This document shows, piece after piece, positions 23,175-38,076 of a stretch of DNA of 64,000 bases. This DNA is from Coleophoma eucalyptorum (lineage: Eukaryota > Ascomycota > Leotiomycetes > Helotiales > Dermateaceae). Both the position numbers and the translations under genes were made by a program. The number at the start of each line of letters is the position of its first letter. Within the stretch, counting starts at the first letter, position 1. Where the stretch lies: the NCBI GenBank assembly GCA_026120035.1, contig JALRME010000015.1:62001-126000 (forward strand). Direction: 5' to 3'. The notes under the pieces are model-generated. The model was not told the origin of the DNA. It worked only from the letters and a program-made list of their open reading frames with translations, and ran no database searches.

Positions 23175-24414
23175 CGTGCCAAGAAATTGGAGCTTAATGT
23201 AAGTATCAATGTAAGGGACCGGGATTAAGCGAAGCGATCAAGAGATTGAGTCGGGATGGGCCAGACGATGTTGAGGCCTTGTTCTTGTCAGAAAGATGGG
23301 ATTCACAGCTGAAAAACACGGAAAGGCTAGAGAAAAGAAAATGAGCGCATAACAAATGCCATACCACCGCGGGGTCTTCGGAGGGACTGACCGGCCAATC
23401 AACGGCGGCGGAAAAGTCAGCCACGCAAGTAAGCGAGTCAATACCGAAAAGGCTGAGGATTCTTCTGCTGCCCGTTTTAAGGCAAGGCTTGTCTGAAATG
23501 CATTCTTATGCTTTTTTGCATTTTAGATCTAGCTAATCCGATAACGTTTTCTCTTTGAACTACACGATATATCCACTTTGCTGGGGACCAAGTATTTATT
23601 GGATAAGTATCATGCCAACTCTCCCACGATCCCATGCTCGCTCGCTGGAGAATTCCCAGATGGCCATCCACTATTTTTATCCACTAGCTTGCATTACTTT
23701 CGCACAAGCTTTGGGCACCCTTCCAGTCCCGCTCGCTTGACCTTTTCTGCCGAAGCCTTCAAAGCAACACAGCCGGGGGATACAGGTATCCGTCGTGGTG
23801 AAAATCGAATGCTGGCTTTCTTCGTTATAATTGCGCTGTAGTTGCTTTAGTCAGTAGATAATAATGGAAAAGATGTTGGAGACGACACCGAATCTCAAGT
23901 GCCGGTATATGCTGAAGAAAACGTATATCTATTCTTGGCATGTGATACTACGTAGGTAGGGCATAGATAGAAGATAATAATTCTCCCACGTAAGTTAGAT
24001 TTAGCAATATTAATTTAGATTATAACTTAGTTGTAGTAATAGTACTTTCCTGTACTATTCTAACCTAGGGAGGCACTTCTAGGAAAGAAACGTTTATTTG
24101 ACTTGGATGTTTGTTGTTGCTATTGAAATTGTATAGAGGAAACTTTTTCTAATAGTTCTAGTGCAACTAACTTACAGATGATCGGATGGTATAAATCAAA
24201 GGTAGAAATACTTCTCAAAGTAAACCTAACCAAATTCAACCTCAACGTAATTGATTTCAGCGTAATTAATTCAGCATAATCGCCTCGGACCTTTTTTTTT
24301 AAACAGTATAATACTGATAGGTGTCAATGCCCTTTCTGTGCTTCAAGAATTTTTTTCTGCTTCCTATCTCTAAATTTCATATTGTGACGTAAGATTGAAG
24401 ATGAAAAGAACACC
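23175..24414. other. Intergenic region with left end of duplicated unit A
   Basis: Contains the aminotransferase promoter and, at about 23555-23770, a segment that recurs at about 28025-28236. From about 23850 to 24400 it is AT-rich with nothing recognisable. The ORFs at 23555-23841 lie in the duplicated non-coding segment and are not supported. Confidence 0.6.
23555..23770 (+). repeat. Diverged direct repeat, unit A copy (partner about 28025-28236)
   Basis: Shared landmarks in the same order in both copies are TATATCCACTTTRCTGGGGA, CCACGATCCCATGC, CTATTTTTATCCACTAGCTT, CGCACAAGCTTTGGGC and CTGCCGAAGCC. The copies are clearly homologous but carry many substitutions and small indels. Confidence 0.9.
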
Positions 24415-25660
24415 TTAAGAATAGTAACCATGCTTTATTTGCCATGTGTAATAGCGTTTAGCAGTAAGTGGTGGAATGGGAAGTGGAAAGAGGTCAGCAT
24501 AATGTTTCTGACGCTCAGGAGATAGTGCTTCCCATTCTGCAGGAGATACAGCAGCCCCAGCATCGAGAAGAAGCTTGACAACTTCCCTGTTGTTCGCAAA
24601 ATCACCGTCAGTGATCATGTTCACCAATGGTGTCTTGAAGCGCCATCCGATCGCACGTTCGATAATCGGTTTGGCATCCAGTATGAGTTTAGTCATCCGT
24701 GGTCCCGACCATGCTGCCGCATGCAAAGGTGTTGATTCTTTTTCAGAGTATCTTAAATTGCTCTTGTTGGCATCATATCCGCTCTGAAGGAGGGCCACCA
24801 TTTCCTCTTGACCAGACCGAATACCAATTATAAGTGCGTTAGAAGATCCCGACACAGGCTCGTTAACTCCCCCGTACTCAAGAAGAGTCTTTACAATGTC
24901 CATGCGTTTATGTTTGACTGCCATTGATAATGCTGTGATTCCGCTGGTACGGTTCGACCTTTCATGCACATCCTGGCCATTCTCGAGCAGCAACTTAACA
25001 ATGCTTTGATGTCCTTTTTTCACAGCGATGAAAAATGCGGCTTCCCCAGTGCTTGACTTTTTGTGGATGTCCTCTCCGTTATCGATCAGGATCCTAGCCA
25101 AGATCTCGTGGCCAGCTCGAGCAGCTAGATGCAATGCAGTTGTCCCTTTAAGGGAATCATCACCTGCATTTGCGTTTTCAGCAAGCAGTACTCTTATCTT
25201 CTTAGCATCTCCCTCTCTGGCTGCCTCAAGAAGCTCAAAGTCTAGTTTTGTTTCATGTCCTCTTGTTGGTTTTGCTTCCCCTATAGCCTGCTCATAGTAG
25301 ATGCGTATCGGATCGTCGCTGGGTAGATCCGCGTGGAATTGATGTTTCTCCTTCATGTGCTTCAATAGATGATCCTTGCGACTAGATCCACGGTATCTGC
25401 AGTCCGAAACCTTGCATTCAAATCTCACTCCAATACGTGCGTGTGTCAGCTTGTGACGTTCCATGTCGGTATTGAGGGCAAATGCTTTGCTGCACATGGC
25501 ACGGATATGGCCGCTCATGGGTCTTCTTATGTCGACTTTTTGGCAATGATAAGCAGATATGTTCAAAAGGTCTGCGGTAAACTTACTTATAGTGCATCCG
25601 TTTGTCGAATTTTTTTGAGCAATGTGCGCATCTGAAGTGTGTACTATTATTGCTCTCCAT
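24415..25660 (-). CDS. C2H2 zinc-finger/ankyrin-repeat protein, likely frameshifted in finger 2
   Basis: Possible regulator or recognition protein; function unknown. Exon 1 (25660-25587) encodes the Cys half of finger 1 (FRCAHCSKKF). With the natural acceptor (exon 2 from 25535) finger 1 is perfect (C-x2-C-x12-H-x3-H) and continues into the classic linker THERPYPC, but this frame soon stops. The rest of finger 2 (CSKAFALNTDMERHKLTH) is in another frame, as if 2 nt were lost from a GTGTGC near 25491-25498. A second acceptor (exon 2 from 25525) restores the main frame and gives 394 aa, at the cost of part of fingers 1 and 2. Downstream are a third finger (FECKVSDCRYRG...) and about seven ankyrin repeats (TALHLAARAGHEILARILID). 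It may be a young pseudogene, a splice-rescued gene or a sequencing error. Confidence 0.75.
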
Positions 25661-26301
25661 TTCTGCGATAGAAATGATTCTCCAAGCCTCGTAAAAAATC
25701 AAGTCACGATTGGAGGGTAGCAAGTAGAGCTGGGCTGAAGAAAACTCGTCGGGTCACCGGGTGAAGGCGCCCACTCCGCTCTATATATTCAAAACCGCTG
25801 TGGGATTAATGATTGTGATTGATGTTGAAACCAATGCAATTAAGATATCTGGGAGTAGGTGAGGGCTGGGGTGATGATATGGAAAGTTTAGGCTCTGATG
25901 GTAGGGGGTGCGCAGAGTAGGGCGCAGAGTAGGGCGGCGGCATGGAGCGGGTTTAGAGTTCAGGCGCATCTGCGACCAACTCTTCCACATTTTCTCGGTG
26001 TTCTCACTCTCTCTCTCTCTATCTCTGTCGTCTTTCAACTTGCCTTTCTGCTTTCTTCTCCCTCTTCTCTTTCTTTTTCATCACTTCATCTTCATTGATT
26101 CCATGTCCTTTGACTTTACTTGTGCCAGCATCAATTCAACAAACTACCAGCCGCCAAAAAGCTGGAGGATTAGGATATCACCAAGCTCGCTTTCGCACAC
26201 CTTACGCAAACACCACCCACTGCCCAGCACCGTTGCTATTCAGAATTGAAACCCTTTGCATCAGCACAGCTCCAGGACATCCGTCTAGGACTTTCTCAAC
26301 A
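25661..26301. promoter_or_regulatory. Divergent region between ankyrin/C2H2 and C2H2 genes
   Basis: About 640 bp holding both promoters. It contains a short GCGCAGAGTAGG direct repeat (about 25910-25933) and a CT-rich tract (about 26008-26090) just before the C2H2 gene. From about 25960 on it is homologous to the region from about 28236. Confidence 0.6.
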
Positions 26302-27424
26302 ATGGTACCGAACTGGAATTCCGGCCATTGCCAGCTACCTTCTGAGCACTTGCAACCTTCGTCCGACAACGTTTCCCGCGACAAACATACTGAGTGAGAC
26401 TTTTTTTTTTCGTCAGCTGACGGTATGCCCTCGGAGGGTTGGCAGTTCTCCAACACTGCCCCTCGGCGCCCTCCGCGCCCGACTTCTACAACACGCCAAA
26501 AATGGACAAATTAGCATCGATCTCGTATTGGCAGAGCTGGATGGCCTCCAAGCTCGCTTCCACCCGTTGTTGTCCACGTCGACATCGGCATCGGCTCAGC
26601 CCTGTCAGGCTTTCCAAGGATCCACCCAGGGCATCCTTGGATATGGTCAAGATCATCACAACACCACGGTCGAGAATGGTGCTGCGCTGACTTCCGCCAA
26701 TGAACCAGCAACCAACAATGCATCATGGATCCAAGCCGCTCCTGGATTTGCACAATACCCAAGTACTGTGGGTACTGATAGTGATCTCACACAACTACTA
26801 AGAAACGACTACCAGTTCGAGAATTGGGATTATAATGATGTCTCCTTCATGCCAGGCTCTGAAACTAATGATCAGAGTCTTCCAATTTTCCCAACCAGCC
26901 TCGATGTCACCTCGAGTACTCCGAACCAATCCATTGGCGCTTTTGACACGCCAGGCTTTGGTGAGGCTATCAGGTTCGAACCTGTTAGTGCTGGGTACGA
27001 CCTGGACGGATCCACTGGCGCAATCGACACACCAGTCTTTAGTGAGGTAATCGGGGTCGAACCTGTTAGCACTGGATATAACTTGGACGGCCTCCCTGCC
27101 ACCCCCAACATGCAATACATTGATCCCCGCCTCACCTGGGGCCAGGAACAAGTGCAGCAAACCAATGGCAACGCAAGCTCTGCAACTCCAGCTTTCCCTG
27201 CCCCTGCCGACCCTACATTAGCTGCTAGTCCCGGAGCTGCCACCACTCACAGGTATCGATGCCAAAATTGTTCAAAGCTTTTCACTCGAAGCAGTGATCG
27301 GGACCGCCATGCGAGAAAGCATGATCTCAATGCTCCTCAATTTGCTTGTCCTGCTCAGAACTGCAATAAGACTTTCTCGAGAAAAGACAAGTTACTTGAC
27401 CATCAACGTCGTGTGTCGCATTAG
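26302..27424 (+). CDS. Two-finger C2H2 protein, intact copy (unit A)
   Basis: Putative DNA-binding protein; target unknown. Deduced exons 26302-26393 and 26446-27424 (52-nt intron GTGAGA...GGCAG) give 356 aa. The start ATG is supported because the degenerate copy has an ATG and a 92-nt first exon at the matching place (28556-28647). The middle is low-complexity, rich in Ser/Thr/Pro/Asn, with an 81-bp tandem duplication (27 aa ending SAGYDLDG / STGYNLDG). The C-terminus has two adjacent fingers: YRCQNCSKLFTRSSDRDRHARKH (C-x2-C-x12-H-x3-H), then FACPAQNCNKTFSRKDKLLD and HQRRVSH (C-x4-C-x12-H-x4-H). The protein ends right after the second finger. No known orthologue recognised. Confidence 0.8.
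26936..27097 (+). repeat. 81-bp in-frame tandem duplication
   Basis: Two copies (26936-27016, 27017-27097), each starting GGCGC and ending near TGGACGG, encode 27-aa repeats of the type GA-x-DTP-x-F-x-E-x-I-x-x-EPVS-x-GY-x-LDG. The copies differ at several sites. Confidence 0.85.
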
Positions 27425-28024
27425 GGGTTGGGCTTTCATCACTGTGGCAATGGCCTTGATAAAGAAATTCAGCTGGGTGGCCAAAGAAACCGTTCAGAGT
27501 TGAGAATTGTAAGGGGTAGGAACCAAGTAACTGGAATTTAGTCGTATTATTTCAGGTGCTTGCTTGTTTAGGTCATACAAAGATCCTTTTTTCTTTTTGT
27601 TGAAGGTTTTGGATCTGAAAATGTGAGAACAATTGTGTGTATATTTTCTCGTATGGAATTGGACTGTTGAGCCACTACTTGGGCTCTTTCTCATACTAAT
27701 ATCCAAGTTGTAGGGTGATCACGACTGAGATAACTCAGAACAGTATTATACGGGTTTTGAGAATGTTTCAATCCCAACTTTATTGTACAAACATCGTAGA
27801 CCATGCCAGCATGATCCTTGGAAGTAACGTGATTCTTGTAGGTCAACACTTTTCCTTTCTGTCCTTATTTTGTTTAGAATTACACATTAGAGAGCGTACG
27901 AATGGGCCTGGTGTGCAGGATAGGGCATTGAGAGGAGCATCCTTTTCGGGTTCTTATCCCCATGGTTTATATTTTCCTCGTAATAGAATGGGTCTTTTCG
28001 AATTGCCTCTTGTATACTTGAACT
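27425..28024. other. 3' flank of the intact C2H2 gene, repeated after 31825
   Basis: Holds the 3' UTR. Several segments recur downstream of the chimeric gene: GGCAATGG-CTTGAT just after the stop, then CTGGTGTGCAGGAT-GGGA and CATCCTTTTC-GGTT around 27910-27960 versus 32060-32120. A 275-codon ORF across 27715-28542 lies in this duplicated non-coding DNA and has no recognisable domain. Confidence 0.65.
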
Positions 28025-29105
28025 ACAATCTATATCCACTTTACTGGGGACAAAGTATTTATTTGATAGAGTATCATGCTAACGTCCCCACGATCCCATG
28101 CCCGCTCGCTGAATGCCCAGATGGCCTTCCACTATTTTTATCCACTAGCTTTATTCACTTCTTTCGCACAAGCTTTGGGCGCCCTTACAGTCCCGGTCGC
28201 TTAACCTTCTCTGCCGAAGCCCTCAGGCGTCTGCGACCAGATCTTCCACAACCTCTCGGTGTTGGCTCATCAATCCATCTTTCTACTTTCCACTTTCTTT
28301 TCCTCCTCCTCCTCCTCCTCCTCCTCATTTCACCTTCGTTGGTTCCATATCCTCTCCCTTTACTTTGCGCCAGCATTGATTCAACAAACTACCAACCTAC
28401 AAGAAAACCGGAGGGATTAGGAACTCACCAAGCTCACTTTCTCCTTCGTACATCTTACCCAAACCGTACCACTGCCCAACATCCCTCGCTATTTAGGGTT
28501 TCAACCTTTGCGGTCAGCACAGCCCTAGGACAACTTATCTAGAGTCGTCTCAAAGATGGCATCAAGCTGGAATTTTACCTATCGCCAGCAACCTCCCGAG
28601 CACTCGCAACCTTCTTCTGGTAGTGTTTCCCACGACAAACTTACTGAGTGAGGCTCTATTTTTTTATTTAACTAGCTGACGGTATGACCTTAGAGCGAAG
28701 ATTGGATGACTTAGACCTCAAATCAGCGCCTTCCATGCCCGACTTCTGCAGCAATCATAAAATGGTCAATTCCGCCTCGATCTAGTATTGCCAAAGCTGG
28801 ATGGCGTTTAAGCTCGCTTCCACCCATTGTTGTCCACGTCGACGTCAACATCGGCTCAGCCACATCAAGCTGTCTAAGGGAGATATAGCTATCGCCCTAG
28901 CTTCCCTACCTCTGCCCAAGGCACCCTTGGATATGGCCAAAATCATCCCAATACCAATTTCGAGGATGGTGCTACTCTGACTTCCACCAGTAAACCAACA
29001 ATCAGCAACACATCCGAGATCCAAGCAGCTCCTGGACTCGCACCATACCCAAATACGATAGCTATTACGGTCATTACTTAAGTGATTTCACACAACCGTT
29101 AATTC
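28025..29105 (+). pseudogene. Decayed 5' copy of the two-finger C2H2 gene (unit B)
   Basis: Homologous in order to 23555-23770 and then to 25960-26805. The ATG (28556), a 92-nt exon 1 with the same splice donor, and the second-exon frame are recognisable (FHARLLQ; LDLVLPKLDG; FHPLLSTSTS). The frame is broken by TAA at 28758 and by TAA in GTTTAAGCT near 28808, with further indels after 28870. Similarity stops at about 29100, where unrelated DNA starts; the missing zinc-finger tail reappears at about 31613. It is no longer able to encode the protein. Confidence 0.85.
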
Positions 29106-29300
29106 TTTGTCGCTTGACTGACCACTAAATCTATACCGCTTACCGTGACAAGGCCACGGGTCGGGACGCAGCAAACCCCGCTAATAGAACTACACCATTG
29201 TGGCGCTTTCGACTTTCTGTCAACTGCGTCCAACCCATCCAGATCTTCTGAATACTGCCTTGTTTAAATCGCGAGTCGTTGGCCGTATCGCGGCCGAGTC

Positions 29301-31825
29301 ATGGCTGCTCCGTCCTTTGGTTTTTCATTCGGCGATATTGTAGCCGCGATCAAGATCCTTAACGATGTTCGCAAAGCCTTGCGGGATACCGGGGGAGCCA
29401 CGGATGAGTTTGAACAGGTCCAAATTGAGCTTCAACATTTGGAGATCCTTCTAGAGTACCTAAATCACGGTGCTTGGGGCGATGGCGCTGATGCTGGTCA
29501 TCTTAATGCCATCAAAGGAATGGCATCCACTTGCCAGGCTCCATTGCGAGAGTTCTTAGCGAAGATGCAGAAGTACCAGCTCTTGCAATCCAGCAACCTG
29601 GGAAGTTATCGGGACAGGCTCAGAACCCAGGGAAAGAAGGTGCAGTGGGCTATTGGTATGAATGAGGAAGTAGAGAAGTTCAGGGCTATAATCGTTGCGA
29701 AAGTTGTAGCCATTAACCTACTCATCCAGCCTTACATAATGTAAGTGTCCATCGAACGGTATCCCGCTGTCAGGTGCTGGCTAGTCTAACAACCCAAAGG
29801 GCTACGATGTTCGAGATAGAAGCTAGGTCTCAAGCGATCCTTGACAGCTCCGCGGCTTCTCAAACCTATATGCGAGAGTGCCAAGAAGAATTCAACGAAA
29901 TGACAAAGGAAATACAAAATACAGCCACAGATCGCACAGTTTTGAACAAACACAGTGATAGACTTCTTCGAATATGCGCAGATACGAGTGTTAAAGTGGA
30001 GGACTTCCGGAAATTCAGCCAGACCTGTCACGTACAAACAAGTCGCCGTCTCCGGCGGCTACAGCACAAACAGAACAGTGGCTTTACAATGCTAGTGTCA
30101 CAATTCCGAGTTCTTACTTCGAGTTTGAAGAGCCTAGAAAATCATGTCCGCCATCTTGTGACGTTGTTTGGAGGGTTCAGCTCTACTGTTCTAAAGACCC
30201 TCACTCAGTCTCTAATGAAAAATTTAGAAATATATGCATTGCTGAGCGAGGTCCACTATGCTATATTACGACAGCCGATTGTTGGAAAAGATGACTCTAT
30301 ACTTTTCACAGATGCTCTTGGGCGGACTCGGACACTCCCGTACGAGTTCTTTCAGCATTGGGAGGTTTTTGAGTCAATGCTTAGATGCGAATTCAAGCAG
30401 AAACCTGGCGAGCAACTGGTGAACCAAAGACAGTATCATCTTCTAAGGGGCTCGAGGACAAAGGAGCTTATCATAAACAAGAATAGATGGGATAGAGTTG
30501 TATTTCCAGGCTCTAATATTAGTATGTCTATGATTATTGCAGGACTGCTATTTCAAGAAGGTCTATGTCCAAGGTTTGCGTGTAGGACACGAAACTCAAC
30601 TCCATTAGATGGTTCTACCCTTATAGTCTGGTTGGTATATCTCTCTTGTTAGGTGCAAGTACTAACCAGTTTTAGCTCTACTTGCAATCTAGAATATCAT
30701 TGCGCAGAGGCGATTCACCCAAGTCCACAAGTCCTGGTCGAGCCTTTGGGCGAGAAGCTTGTACTCTCTCAGCAGCTAGGAGAAGATAGATGTAATAGTA
30801 GAAATTTCGAGGAAGTAACAGATGCTACCCCATCAGAAGATATACCCTCAGAAAACCATCAGCCAGTGTTCACGGCTGACGAATACTCAATTGGGGACGA
30901 ACTTGAAGCTTTCAAGTCTATTCATATTCAAACACAGCCTAAAATTGAGACACTTAAGGCAGAAGAGACTCTAGAACGCAAGAGCTATAGCAAAGAGACG
31001 GAGCATATCGATGAGAAGACCCACCAGACTATCAGCGAGAAATTAGAAGTGGAGAGTGAAAGAGAAGAAAATGAGGGAGAAGGGATTCCAGATTCTGCCG
31101 CAAAAACCATGACCTCACCGTCACCGCGCCACAAGACCACTTCAAAGATGGTTTCAACTTCATATCTGCTTTCAAATATGCACTGCCCATCATGCGTATC
31201 CCATATCCAGAATATCCTTCACGCTCTTGAACCCAAGCCAGCTGCAGTATCGCCGTCTCTTGTCTCCCACTGGGTGACCGTAGAGCATGCCGAAGCCTTA
31301 CTACCAAAGCAAATCTCGGACGCTCTTGAAGACGCTGGGTTTGACGTATGCAGTGTTTCCACTAATGATGGGTCGAGTGATGATGCGTTGGGAGACCTTC
31401 CGCTTGATTTTGGTAACGAGAATAGAAATCTCGATCTAGTCTTACATCGGTGGAGATCACGCAGCAGTGCAGCTTCACGACGAGAGAGGCAGTCACATAA
31501 GAATGTTAACAACTGTAAGCAGTGTCGATTAGCTATTAAGGGAAAGTACAATGCATCTGCAGTGTCATCAAAACCTACTTTAATAGAGCAGCAGTCATCA
31601 GAATCCGACAGCGATGGGTATAACTTGGACGGCCTCCCTGCCACCACTCACAGGTATCGATGCCAAAATTGTTCAATGCTTTTCACTCGAAGCAGTGATC
31701 GGAACCGCCATGCGAGAAGGCATGATCTCAATGCTCCTCAATTTGCTTGTCCTGCTCAGAACTGCAATAAGACTTTCTCGAGAAAAGACAAGTTACTTGA
31801 CCATCAACGTCGTGTGTCGCATTAG
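29301..31825 (+). CDS. Chimeric protein: STAND-type N-terminus, ubiquitin-like, HMA copper-binding and two C2H2 fingers
   Basis: Deduced exons 29301-29740, 29800-30630 and 30676-31825, all in phase, give 806 aa. Residues 1-147 are the helical N-terminal domain common in fungal STAND proteins (FGFSFGDIVAAIKILNDVRK). A ubiquitin-like (ULD) domain lies at about 305-395 (ILFTDALGRTRTLPYEFFQH, WEVFESMLRCEFKQKPGEQ). A charged linker follows. Residues about 582-710 look like the N-terminal metal-binding region of fungal copper P-type ATPases: LLSNMHCPSCVSHIQNIL with the CxxC pair, DALEDAGFDVCSV, and a trailing NNCKQCR. At residue 738 the sequence switches to the zinc-finger tail of the neighbouring C2H2 gene (751-806), with both fingers intact. 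The ORF crosses the junction without a stop. Function unknown. The second intron has a GTTGGT donor. Whether the full fusion is expressed cannot be seen. Confidence 0.8.
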
Positions 31826-32190
31826 GGTTTGGACTTTCATTACTCTGGCAATGGTCTTGATTCAGAATTCAGGGGAGTGATCTAAAGGAACCGCTCGGTG
31901 TTTTCAGAGTTAAGTGTTGCGAGATGTAGGGAGTAGGGAGTAGGGAGCAAGTCACTGGAAGTTAGTTGCAGACCTCAGGCGCTTATTCAGGCATGATATT
32001 ATTCTTTTTGTTTCTCTTACCTCTTTTCCTTTTTGGGAAAAACTCATTAGGTAGCTTACGAGTAGTGCTGGTGTGCAGGATCGGGAATTAAGAAGAGCGT
32101 CCTTTTCTGGTTTTTATCACTCTGGCTTATGATTCTTCATAAAAAAATCGGTCATTTCTAATTTCCTCTTACCCGTGACATGCAAATAAG
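31613..32190 (+). repeat. Zinc-finger tail and 3' flank, unit B copy (partner 27073-28010)
   Basis: 31646-31825 differs from 27245-27424 at only 3 of 180 positions by my count. Relative to unit A it lacks exactly 141 bp between two CTGCCACC repeats (27096-27103 and 27237-27244), leaving a single CTGCCACC at 31638-31645. The 3' flank to about 32190 is homologous but more diverged. Confidence 0.9.
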
Positions 32191-35355: not shown

Positions 35356-37674
35356 TCATTGGATATTGAATATTTCCATTATTCTCTCGCCCGATTCAAC
35401 TTCATCGACCACTTTGCCGTCCATGAACCGATTTACGTATGCGTCGCCTATGATGCACCACGCGTCACTGTCATCCCCTGCCTTCTTCCTTAGCACAATC
35501 GGAATAGCACAGCCAGAAAGCACAACTATTAAATCTCCAATTTTAACGCACTCGGGTCCTATAGCAAATTCGGCACCCGGAGTGCTTAGAGCCAGGAGCG
35601 TTCTGTCTTTTAGGCGATCCGTTGCACCAAAAACGTTGACCTCCGCGGCGCGATATCTCTCTGGTGTCGGGTCCGCTTCTACTTCAACAGGTCCTAGCAG
35701 ATCATGGAATTGCGATTCTAGTCCATCTTGCGAGTATCTTCTCACAAGAAGTTTCAAATCTTGCAAAGTTGTCTTGATGAAGGCATCTCTCTCGTTCTCG
35801 CCAATATCACCCTTATATAGTCCTCCCAATAAGACAAGATCCAAAAAGCCTCCTTGCCCTTCGAACTTTGCACCTCCGTCCTTGAAGAAGTTTAAGAACC
35901 ATGTTGTCAGGACCTCGTAGATAGGATGGAATTTAAACCTTCCTGGTTCCATAGCTGGCATCGAATAGCTAGCCTCTGTTACCGTTCCAATTCTGACCCC
36001 CGCTGCTGAAAGTATTTTGGAATCGTGAACGATGGTAATTTGTGGTTTGGTTAGTCCTGATGCTGATACGTAAAGCGCAGAACCTCGTTCAGAACCGTTA
36101 TTGGGCGTGGAGCCTGGCAGTAGTGTTTCGTTTGTAGGCAGAGAAGAGTACTGGCACCAATCTGAAATCCGGGACTTTTGACGAAGAGGTGGTAAACCAA
36201 AATTCGGCACCCAGGATGGAAGATCTAGACTATCCAAGGTCACGTCGGATTCCGAATCGGTCAGGAAGTGATGAGAAACGACATTGTCTGGATTGTTTGA
36301 GGGGTGTGATTTAGAAGTATGATCACCGGTCATCTTATCAACTGTATCATGATCCTTGTTGTCCGCGAGTATAAGAAGATCCTCCTCATGCTTGATCACG
36401 AAGAGAGTTGCTTCGCGAAATACAGTTGAAGTGTCAAGGTCGTAGTCGACAGGGATACGTTCCTTTGCCGGTGCATCGCAGAGAGCTAAGATGGCGAAGA
36501 CCTTATCTCTGGGATCTGTAGCATCCTTCCTTCTATGTTTTACCAGCATTTCACCTAACTTCCTTGATTGAATTCTCTTTGAGTTTTGGCCAACCTCAAC
36601 GATATTGGGCCCATCTTGCCACAACCTGGCACTCATATGTCCAATCTCTGTACCCCCAAGGACATCAATGATAATCGCACTATGTTTCCACAGAAGTTCC
36701 TGTACTCTCTGCAAATCCCTCCACTCGATGCTCTGACTTCCAACATGGAACAGGACGTCTTGCGCGAACTGCAACTCCTGCAAAACCCAGATTCTCCTCC
36801 AATAGTCCCTCGCGAATAGCTTCATGACAGCTCGAGCGTCACGCTCGATTCGATTCGAGCTCCGCCACGGAACCCAGCTTTCAGACATGGTCTTCTCCAC
36901 CCCACGCTTTAGCACCGAGCGAAAGAATTTGAATGCGTCCTCCGACCGCTCATACTCGTCTCCCAGCCATGTAATGACCCTCGTCGCCTTTTCATAGACC
37001 AACTTCATTTTGGAGACCTGGTGATTACGCTCATTCACATCAGACTGGTTGATACAGACGGCATCGGCCCAGATGAGCTTCTTTCTATCATGGTGAAAGA
37101 GCTCCTTCAGTGCAGACGCCAAGTTACTCGTGACCGCAACTTCGTGGCCGTCAATCATGATGGTGGTACTGATGTCTGCGTGCCCATAGCGGTCTGACCA
37201 GGTATAGCTGAGAGCTTCATAATGGCGTCTCTTACCAATCGCAAGACTGTCGTTGAAATCCAGAGATAGGTGGATGAGAGAGAAGTTCATCAATTCCCCG
37301 TGGATAGTTGGGGGCGAGCCGATCTCGAGAAGCCGAATTTCATGTTTTTCTGGGTCTAGCGCCTTGTATGGGTATGAATTATTGATGGTAACAGGATGGT
37401 TGGGAATCTGTCTTTGCAATTCCTTCATACGACGGCGTCGTAGATTATACGCCTCGGATTCTGCGAGGGTCATGAATCTCCCCATTTTGGCAGGCGGAAA
37501 GGCTAAAGACCATGAGATCTGGACAATATGTGGGCACGCTACATGTAGGAAGTTGGCTAGTGTCTGGAATCGATAATGATTGCGCGCAGTGACGTCTTGG
37601 TTGGCGTAGATGTTGATGGTTGGTGGCCATTGAGATGAGAGATCAGACGTGATAGAAGCGGGGAAGATTCCCAT
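35356..37674 (-). CDS. HET-domain protein
   Basis: Member of the HET family, whose founders trigger heterokaryon-incompatibility cell death; most members are uncharacterised. Single exon, up to 772 aa. HET signatures are HYEALSYTWSD (151-161), ITVTSNL-like AVTSNLASALKEL (180-192), LIWADAVCINQSDVNERNHQV (200-220), VYEKATRVITWLGDE and WRRIWVLQELQFAQDV. The C-terminal half is variable and ends with the common AWCIIGDAYVNRFMDGKV segment. The first 63 residues before MGRFMTLAES are not typical, so Met64 may be the real start. It lies in the same 38-kb arm as the NLR-like and chimeric genes. Confidence 0.92.
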   Translation of the reverse strand: MGIFPASITSDLSSQWPPTINIYANQDVTARNHYRFQTLANFLHVACPHIVQISWSLAFPPAKMGRFMTLAESEAYNLRRRRMKELQRQIPNHPVTINNSYPYKALDPEKHEIRLLEIGSPPTIHGELMNFSLIHLSLDFNDSLAIGKRRHYEALSYTWSDRYGHADISTTIMIDGHEVAVTSNLASALKELFHHDRKKLIWADAVCINQSDVNERNHQVSKMKLVYEKATRVITWLGDEYERSEDAFKFFRSVLKRGVEKTMSESWVPWRSSNRIERDARAVMKLFARDYWRRIWVLQELQFAQDVLFHVGSQSIEWRDLQRVQELLWKHSAIIIDVLGGTEIGHMSARLWQDGPNIVEVGQNSKRIQSRKLGEMLVKHRRKDATDPRDKVFAILALCDAPAKERIPVDYDLDTSTVFREATLFVIKHEEDLLILADNKDHDTVDKMTGDHTSKSHPSNNPDNVVSHHFLTDSESDVTLDSLDLPSWVPNFGLPPLRQKSRISDWCQYSSLPTNETLLPGSTPNNGSERGSALYVSASGLTKPQITIVHDSKILSAAGVRIGTVTEASYSMPAMEPGRFKFHPIYEVLTTWFLNFFKDGGAKFEGQGGFLDLVLLGGLYKGDIGENERDAFIKTTLQDLKLLVRRYSQDGLESQFHDLLGPVEVEADPTPERYRAAEVNVFGATDRLKDRTLLALSTPGAEFAIGPECVKIGDLIVVLSGCAIPIVLRKKAGDDSDAWCIIGDAYVNRFMDGKVVDEVESGERIMEIFNIQ

Positions 37675-38076
37675 GTGCCGGTCATTTTATCCCGTACAGG
37701 GTTATCAGAAACCTGGTATCACAGCAACTGCAGTCCTATGTGCATCACTAACTTTTAGCAGGGGGCAGAGAAAGGGAACTAGCGATGCGAGAACAATCAA
37801 GACAGGATTTCTTATCCAGTAAATATGTGCCGTATTCCAATTATTAGATTCAATCAAACCACCTTTCCATCCAAAGCTATGCTGAACACCATATGCGACA
37901 AAATGCAATAAATCCATAAAACTACAGCAGAAAATGATCCGCTATGTTCGCTCAGCAAACAATGGTATCTCAGAAGCAAAAGTGATCAGATCGAGAGGAA
38001 AAAACATCTCGAACATGCACCAGACTCCTAAACACCTTTCCCCCATGTTACCCGCTCCCAGATGCGCGACAAGTTA
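37675..38076. other. Intergenic region, HET gene upstream side
   Basis: 402 bp between the HET gene start and the channel gene stop. No supported gene. Confidence 0.4.

Follow-up and report, generated by a model that had tools for sequence, protein, structure and literature searches.

How a ubiquitin-like scaffold came to end in a heavy-metal-associated (HMA) domain and two C2H2 fingers, and whether this ending does anything for the cell, are the questions raised by a gene of Coleophoma eucalyptorum. The gene lies in a window of 64,000 bases, namely positions 62001-126000 of contig C8 in a genome of 45.26 Mb (101 contigs). Among named organisms, the closest relatives of its parts come from Helotiales. 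Coordinates given below are those of the window unless another contig or locus is named. The chimeric structure itself is seen in the sequence. The scaffold sits between the halves of a duplicated C2H2 gene and carries a piece of a copper ATPase and the fingers at its C-terminal end. The chimera may thus be a young and traceable swap of protein parts onto a possible immune-type scaffold.

Gene model and locus

Splice enumeration and translation gave a single open path of 806 amino acids on the plus strand, composed of the exons 29301-29740, 29800-30630 and 30676-31825, as the sequence-only reading of this DNA had proposed. The order of domains is a helical N-terminal domain, ULD_2, HMA and two C2H2 fingers. 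Exon 1, supported by its open reading frame, encodes the helical N-terminal domain of the scaffold. Exon 2 encodes a helical region and ULD_2 (the latter recognised with Pfam), and exon 3 the end of the scaffold, a linker, the HMA segment and the C2H2 tail. Intron 1 (29741-29799, 59 bases, GTAAGT..CCAAAG) is canonical. Intron 2 (30631-30675, 45 bases, GTTGGT..TTTTAG) has an unusual donor, and when it is left in, the frame ends at a stop at 30650-30652, ahead of the HMA domain.

These features of intron 2 would suit the reading that two or more separate genes, or the two sides of an assembly join, have been misread as one protein. We consider this most improbable. By eye, the paralogues at C40 and C35 admit an intron within this Cys codon (split between TG and C) and in the same phase, which supports the model of intron 2. 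A possible donor was also seen by eye at the matching place in C79, and no intron was seen there in the C19 copy. The spliced path contains no stop from the ULD through the last finger, so a transcript spliced in this way would make the fusion protein; the earlier reading had named a stop between the parts as grounds for refutation. The same holds for an assembly join at 31613, which is unlikely since neither side is a stray identical copy. The ATPase piece differs from its donor by 8% (42 of 510 bases), the fingers differ from theirs by 2%, and the flank past the fingers differs by 30% (23 of 77 bases), so that a misjoin of identical copies is not expected. The window contains no N bases.

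About 3.5 kb downstream of the chimera, a gene with a HET (heterokaryon incompatibility) domain is found on the minus strand (35356-37686, 103.4 bits).

The scaffold half and its nearest relatives

The ULD_2 domain (PF22893) spans residues 310-393 (30287-30538, plus strand) and scores 90.9 bits against a cut-off of 24.5, and the ubiquitin-like domain noticed earlier can be retained. A ubiquitin fold is predicted for the corresponding domain in the model of the relative P0001. Among the columns that are invariant across all 24 rows of the alignment, the chimera included, are D318, R322, W334 and W377. The nature of the N-terminus is less clear. Exon 1 is 77% identical to residues 1-149 of P0001, and two alignments indicate that the chimera shares an FGFS-type N-terminal helical domain and a Cys motif after the ULD with its nearest relatives. 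HeLo and SesA profiles score below their cut-offs, the weak SesA match reaching 16.0 bits (cut-off 26.3). No NACHT or NB-ARC domain occurs among the 11 Pfam families listed for the protein at E up to 1. The identification as a STAND-type receptor, or NLR, was therefore dropped, as no NTPase domain was found.

The two nearest relatives are P0001 (hypothetical protein EG329_000037 of Mollisiaceae sp. DMI_Dod_QoI, 989 aa), with 70% identity over 67% of the query, and P0002 (Halenospora varia, 946 aa), with 53% over 65%. In the tree, the chimera groups with P0001 at 93/95, just under the starred level, and both group with P0002 at 100/100. The scaffold half of the chimera is intact and has zero frame breaks. 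Its rate of change does not differ significantly from that of P0001 (42 vs 28 unique changes, chi-square 2.8; 13 vs 11 where both outgroups agree).

Both relatives possess the N-terminal domain, ULD_2 and the Cys motif, and P0001 also has the acidic linker. The similarity between the chimera and P0001 seems to reach into this linker, which is low-complexity sequence, and to stop close to the start of the ATPase piece. Unlike the chimera, the relatives continue from the ULD into a degenerating protein kinase, which we take to be Ran1-like, at the place of the HMA-C2H2 tail. Protein kinases have the DFG and HRDLK motifs and a glycine loop as reference. In P0002, NFA stands in place of DFG and the glycine loop is missing; P0001 retains DFG. 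The HRDLK motif reads HRD[IL]R in the two proteins. When the P0001 model was searched with Foldseek, no match at E 0.001 or better was obtained, and the best 50 rows were kinases.

The best match to the P0001 kinase in the C. eucalyptorum genome is an intact Ran1-like gene at C24, which is separate, has its own start and encodes 485 aa. A second ULD-kinase gene was not found in the genome, and the roughly 5 kb examined upstream of the C24 gene held no significant match to a ULD. Because the closest relatives carry a degenerating kinase in place of HMA-C2H2, the tail was probably swapped. In the simplest history, the ancestor would have had a decaying Ran1-like kinase tail, which the lineage of the chimera probably lost as the present HMA-C2H2 tail was joined on.

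The tandem duplication and the C2H2 tail

The locus contains a unit of about 4.5 kb (23555-28011) that is tandemly repeated at 28018-32170. The 5' remnant of the duplicate (28018-29056, plus strand) consists of copies of 23555-23761 (at 28018-28225, 86% alike) and of 25960-26766 (at 28223-29056, 71%). At the other end, 31615-31902 corresponds to 27073-27103 plus 27237-27501, and 32042-32170 to 27882-28011 (77%). The part beyond the chimera's stop (31826-32170, plus strand) forms the 3' flank, which repeats 27425-27501 and 27882-28011. Inside the duplicate, the middle is replaced by the scaffold and the ATPase piece.

The parent is the neighbouring C2H2 gene, an open reading frame on the plus strand at 26246-27424, the start of which is approximate. 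When read over 26174-27424, it scores 31.4 bits for zf-C2H2 (cut-off 25.2). This gene also contains an internal tandem repeat of 81 bases (26929-27090), the units of which are 79% alike. An ankyrin-repeat gene (24415-25566, minus strand) lies inside the first copy of the unit; the second copy gave no match to this gene.

The C2H2 tail of the chimera (31615-31825, plus strand) aligns with 27073-27103 and 27237-27424 of the neighbour, and the intervening part is omitted. C2H2 fingers follow the pattern C-x2-4-C-x12-H-x3-5-H. Finger 1 (residues 751-774, 31655-31726) and finger 2 (residues 780-806, 31742-31822), both placed on the plus strand from the exon map, fit this spacing by eye. Finger 2 is the one matched by PF00096. 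The two fingers expected from the first reading are thus present in their Cys/His spacing, but the profile does not recognise them at its threshold: zf-C2H2 (PF00096) gives the protein 21.2 bits, short of the cut-off of 25.2. Their structure was not predicted with confidence (block-mean pLDDT of 31-38 over the last 60 residues).

The copying of the fingers from the neighbour, also suggested at the outset, is evident from the alignment of 31640-31825 with 27239-27424, in which only 3 of 186 bases differ. All three differences change the amino acid (K to M, D to N and K to R), and they fall outside helix positions -1, 2, 3 and 6. In the 77 bases past the stop, 23 differ. The near-identity ends sharply at the stop codon, which suggests that the fingers were later recopied or underwent gene conversion.

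The HMA segment and its donor

The other part of the tail is derived from a copper P-type ATPase of the same genome. The matching segment (31078-31618, plus strand) covers the leader and the first 170 or so codons of the ATPase gene at C46 (C46:643655-644182, minus strand); its first 15 or so bases match poorly. A genome search with the ATPase-like segment returned this place with 92% identity over 528. Over residues 559-741, the chimera shares 86% identity with the beginning of the C46 ATPase, so the comparison proposed earlier with the copper ATPase of this genome gave the expected relationship. The match takes in the leader just before the ATPase ATG. From this ATG (31109) to the junction, 468 of 510 bases are identical, and the 42 differences include neither a stop nor an indel. 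The homology ends at about 31618, where it crosses into the C2H2 sequence over a shared TGG. The nearest relative of the segment outside the genome is the copper P-type ATPase P0024 of Coleophoma crateriformis (71%).

The core of the HMA domain (PF00403) spans residues 589-647 (31169-31345, plus strand) and scores 25.4 bits, just over the cut-off of 24.8. It contains CPSC at residues 594-597, unchanged from the donor. An HMA fold is predicted, with block-mean pLDDT of 82-96 over model residues 161-230, and the best PDB match of the model is ATP7B (6a71, target TM 0.92). Profile and fold thus agree with the HMA segment first recognised from its motif. The actuator and catalytic domains of the ATPase were not taken along: E1-E2 ATPase and hydrolase domains are absent among the chimera's Pfam families, and PF00122 is listed for all 12 matches of the HMA segment.

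Selection on the captured segment

Is the captured segment maintained? It differs from its donor by 20 amino acids. When polarised with P0024, 14 of these changes fall on the branch of the chimera, 3 on that of the ATPase and 3 are undecided. Among the 11 of the 12 HMA-segment matches that were aligned, residues 674 and 700 are kept in 11 of 11 ATPases and residue 675 in 10 of 11. The chimera has lost all three, and all lie past the HMA core. The pairwise dN/dS between chimera and C46 segment is 0.34 (0.14 in the HMA core and 0.49 after it; Fisher p 0.09), a weak hint that the core is kept. Omega on the chimera branch was estimated with the measured transition bias, polarisation with P0024 and several assumed per-branch shares of silent changes. 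Depending on the share, it ranges over 0.52-1.08, which does not reject neutrality. The claim that the captured tail is under purifying selection was therefore given up, since the low pairwise value is indistinguishable from neutral evolution once polarised and transition-corrected. As selection cannot be told from neutrality, whatever is said of the function of this segment below is conditional.

The strongest evidence against a functional tail is this failure to reject neutrality. It is quite possible, if short of probable, that the gene is a young chimera with a tail that has no selected function, in which a rearrangement removed the kinase tail, and ATPase piece and fingers were joined in frame by chance and are drifting. 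Such drift would agree with an omega near neutral across the whole captured segment and with the loss of residues conserved in ATPases. Related copies at C19, C28 and C55 contain stops, and the similarity of only 71% in the 5' half of the duplicate shows that decay is tolerated in this region. In contrast, 42 differences have accumulated in 510 bases with no stop or indel, although the chance of zero stops under neutrality is as high as 0.31-0.43. The lower dN/dS of the HMA core, the retained pair of metal-binding Cys and the intact scaffold also speak against mere drift, as does the conservation of the fingers relative to the sequence past the stop, which recent gene conversion could explain too.

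Tails across the ULD_2 family

With Pfam, 20 of the 23 relatives from the whole-protein search were scanned. Tails over the cut-off were a kinase in two, ankyrin repeats in one and a cullin N-terminus in one (34.8, cut-off 33.2). The remaining 16 have ULD_2 alone over a cut-off, and a captured tail is therefore not the rule. One of these ULD_2-only relatives has a cullin match under the cut-off (24.8). In the ULD proteins P0009, P0010 and P0014, the resemblance of the tail to the cullin family is confined to the family's N-terminal part. P0010 exceeds the cut-off and P0014 stays below it, and P0009 is assigned by a precomputed label only.

In the genome itself, ULD_2 was found at six places (the chimera, C35, C79, C19, C40 and C5). 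The gene at C35 (L050 1076-2819) ends in a GATA finger (44.0 bits, cut-off 26.8), and a further GATA finger, at C16, shares 72% identity with it over 43 aa. At C79, an ankyrin-repeat frame adjoins the ULD scaffold; the two were provisionally taken as one gene. The scaffold at C19 (L051, minus strand) is followed by a Myb-like piece that scores 17.5 bits, under the cut-off of 24.4, and shows 71% identity over 69 aa with a stretch within an open frame of 2133 codons at C101. Both the GATA and the Myb-like tail appear, from these identities, to be copies of resident genes. No family was found in two tail pieces scanned at C40, and the place at C5 has another architecture. The family also decays, as the C19 relative has in-frame stops and GATA-type copies at C28 and C55 are broken.

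The similarity between C19 and C101 extends beyond the part matched by the Myb-like profile. The presence of donor intron DNA inside the Myb-like tail was considered and given up, as the C101 frame is open there.

Possible functions of the chimera

A chimeric scaffold gene, the kinase tail of which was replaced and which serves to hold interchangeable sensor tails, is the best explanation at present, and we give it an even chance. The HET-domain gene nearby counts in its favour. The scaffold would keep its fold and hold the tails, and the tail would decide what the scaffold meets, with the helical N-terminal domain and the ULD giving the output. The copied HMA domain would display a surface like that of the copper ATPase, and the fingers could direct the chimera to sites bound by the neighbouring C2H2 protein. 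The whole would then behave like an integrated-domain receptor that lacks a nucleotide-binding motor.

The HMA domain may accordingly serve as a bait, and this gains indirect support from the different tails of the relatives. In a wider form, the N-terminal-helical/ULD proteins of Helotiales would be a motor-less counterpart of integrated-domain receptors that captures pieces of the organism's own regulators and transporters as exchangeable baits. The pieces would be the copper-ATPase HMA, C2H2, GATA, Myb-like, Ran1-like kinase and cullin-like N-terminus, and the chimera would be a fresh capture with donors that are still identifiable. This generalisation is rather unlikely.

The GATA and Myb-like tails are as compatible with DNA-binding regulators as with baits. 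The chimera might thus be a copper-responsive DNA-binding regulator, in which the HMA domain senses Cu(I) and the fingers share the site of the neighbour, leading to competition or to recruitment of the scaffold. The retained CPSC, the predicted HMA fold, the placing of the finger differences and these two tails are in its favour. However, the zinc-finger profile stays under its cut-off in the chimera, and the recognised tails in other genomes are kinase, ankyrin and cullin-like, none of them DNA-binding; we regard such a regulator as improbable. The two functions differ in what they predict. A bait would require that surface residues of the HMA domain matter, and metal handling may not, whereas a regulator would show copper-dependent binding of DNA at the neighbour's sites.

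To return to the holder of interchangeable tails, donor and copy are present in one genome, so that capture, age and fate are directly testable. Even with a neutral tail, the locus would be a well-resolved example of how tandem duplication and the capture of pieces of other genes give rise to a new multidomain gene.

Comparison with known systems

That no described protein is known to have this order of domains, as noted at first, agrees with three database searches. ULD and HMA did not occur together in any protein among the matches of the whole-protein (23), HMA-segment (12) and profile (34) searches; in the whole-protein and profile searches, scoring was confined to the roughly 7,990 candidates with the most words in common, and a relative may have escaped detection. 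Among the papers listed as matches, no title or opening of an abstract describes this fusion.

Judged by its domains, the chimera is by definition both a ULD_2 protein and an HMA protein, and neither a copper ATPase nor an NLR. Copper P-type ATPases (C46 and P0024, 86% and 71% identity) share the HMA segment with it, but have actuator and catalytic domains of their own, which the chimera lacks. In plant immunity, integrated HMA domains are well known from NLRs such as rice Pik-1 and RGA5. Like these, the chimera is a putative receptor-type protein with an additional HMA domain. It differs in that NB-ARC or NACHT was not detected, the scaffold is another one, and the HMA domain, which stems from a copper ATPase, has retained the CxxC. 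In NLRs with integrated domains as in the chimera, the extra domain comes from a resident gene; the NLR backbone is missing in the latter. The resemblance to integrated-domain (bait) receptors is, at the level compared here, one of anatomy only. If it held in function, a copper-ATPase HMA on a recognition-like scaffold, in a family with tails that vary within genomes and from one genome to another, would suggest that fungi use the plants' trick with other hardware.

In fungi, putative integrated decoys have been proposed for NLRs of Sordariales (PMC12258605). The main text of this paper mentions neither HMA nor heavy metal nor copper (PMC12258605). The Sordariales systems are NLRs, which the chimera is not, and the decoys include a C-terminal kinase derived from CHK-2 (PMC12258605). 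The likeness to the chimera's family lies in C-terminal kinase or zinc-finger domains, which the paper discusses as captured resident domains (PMC12258605).
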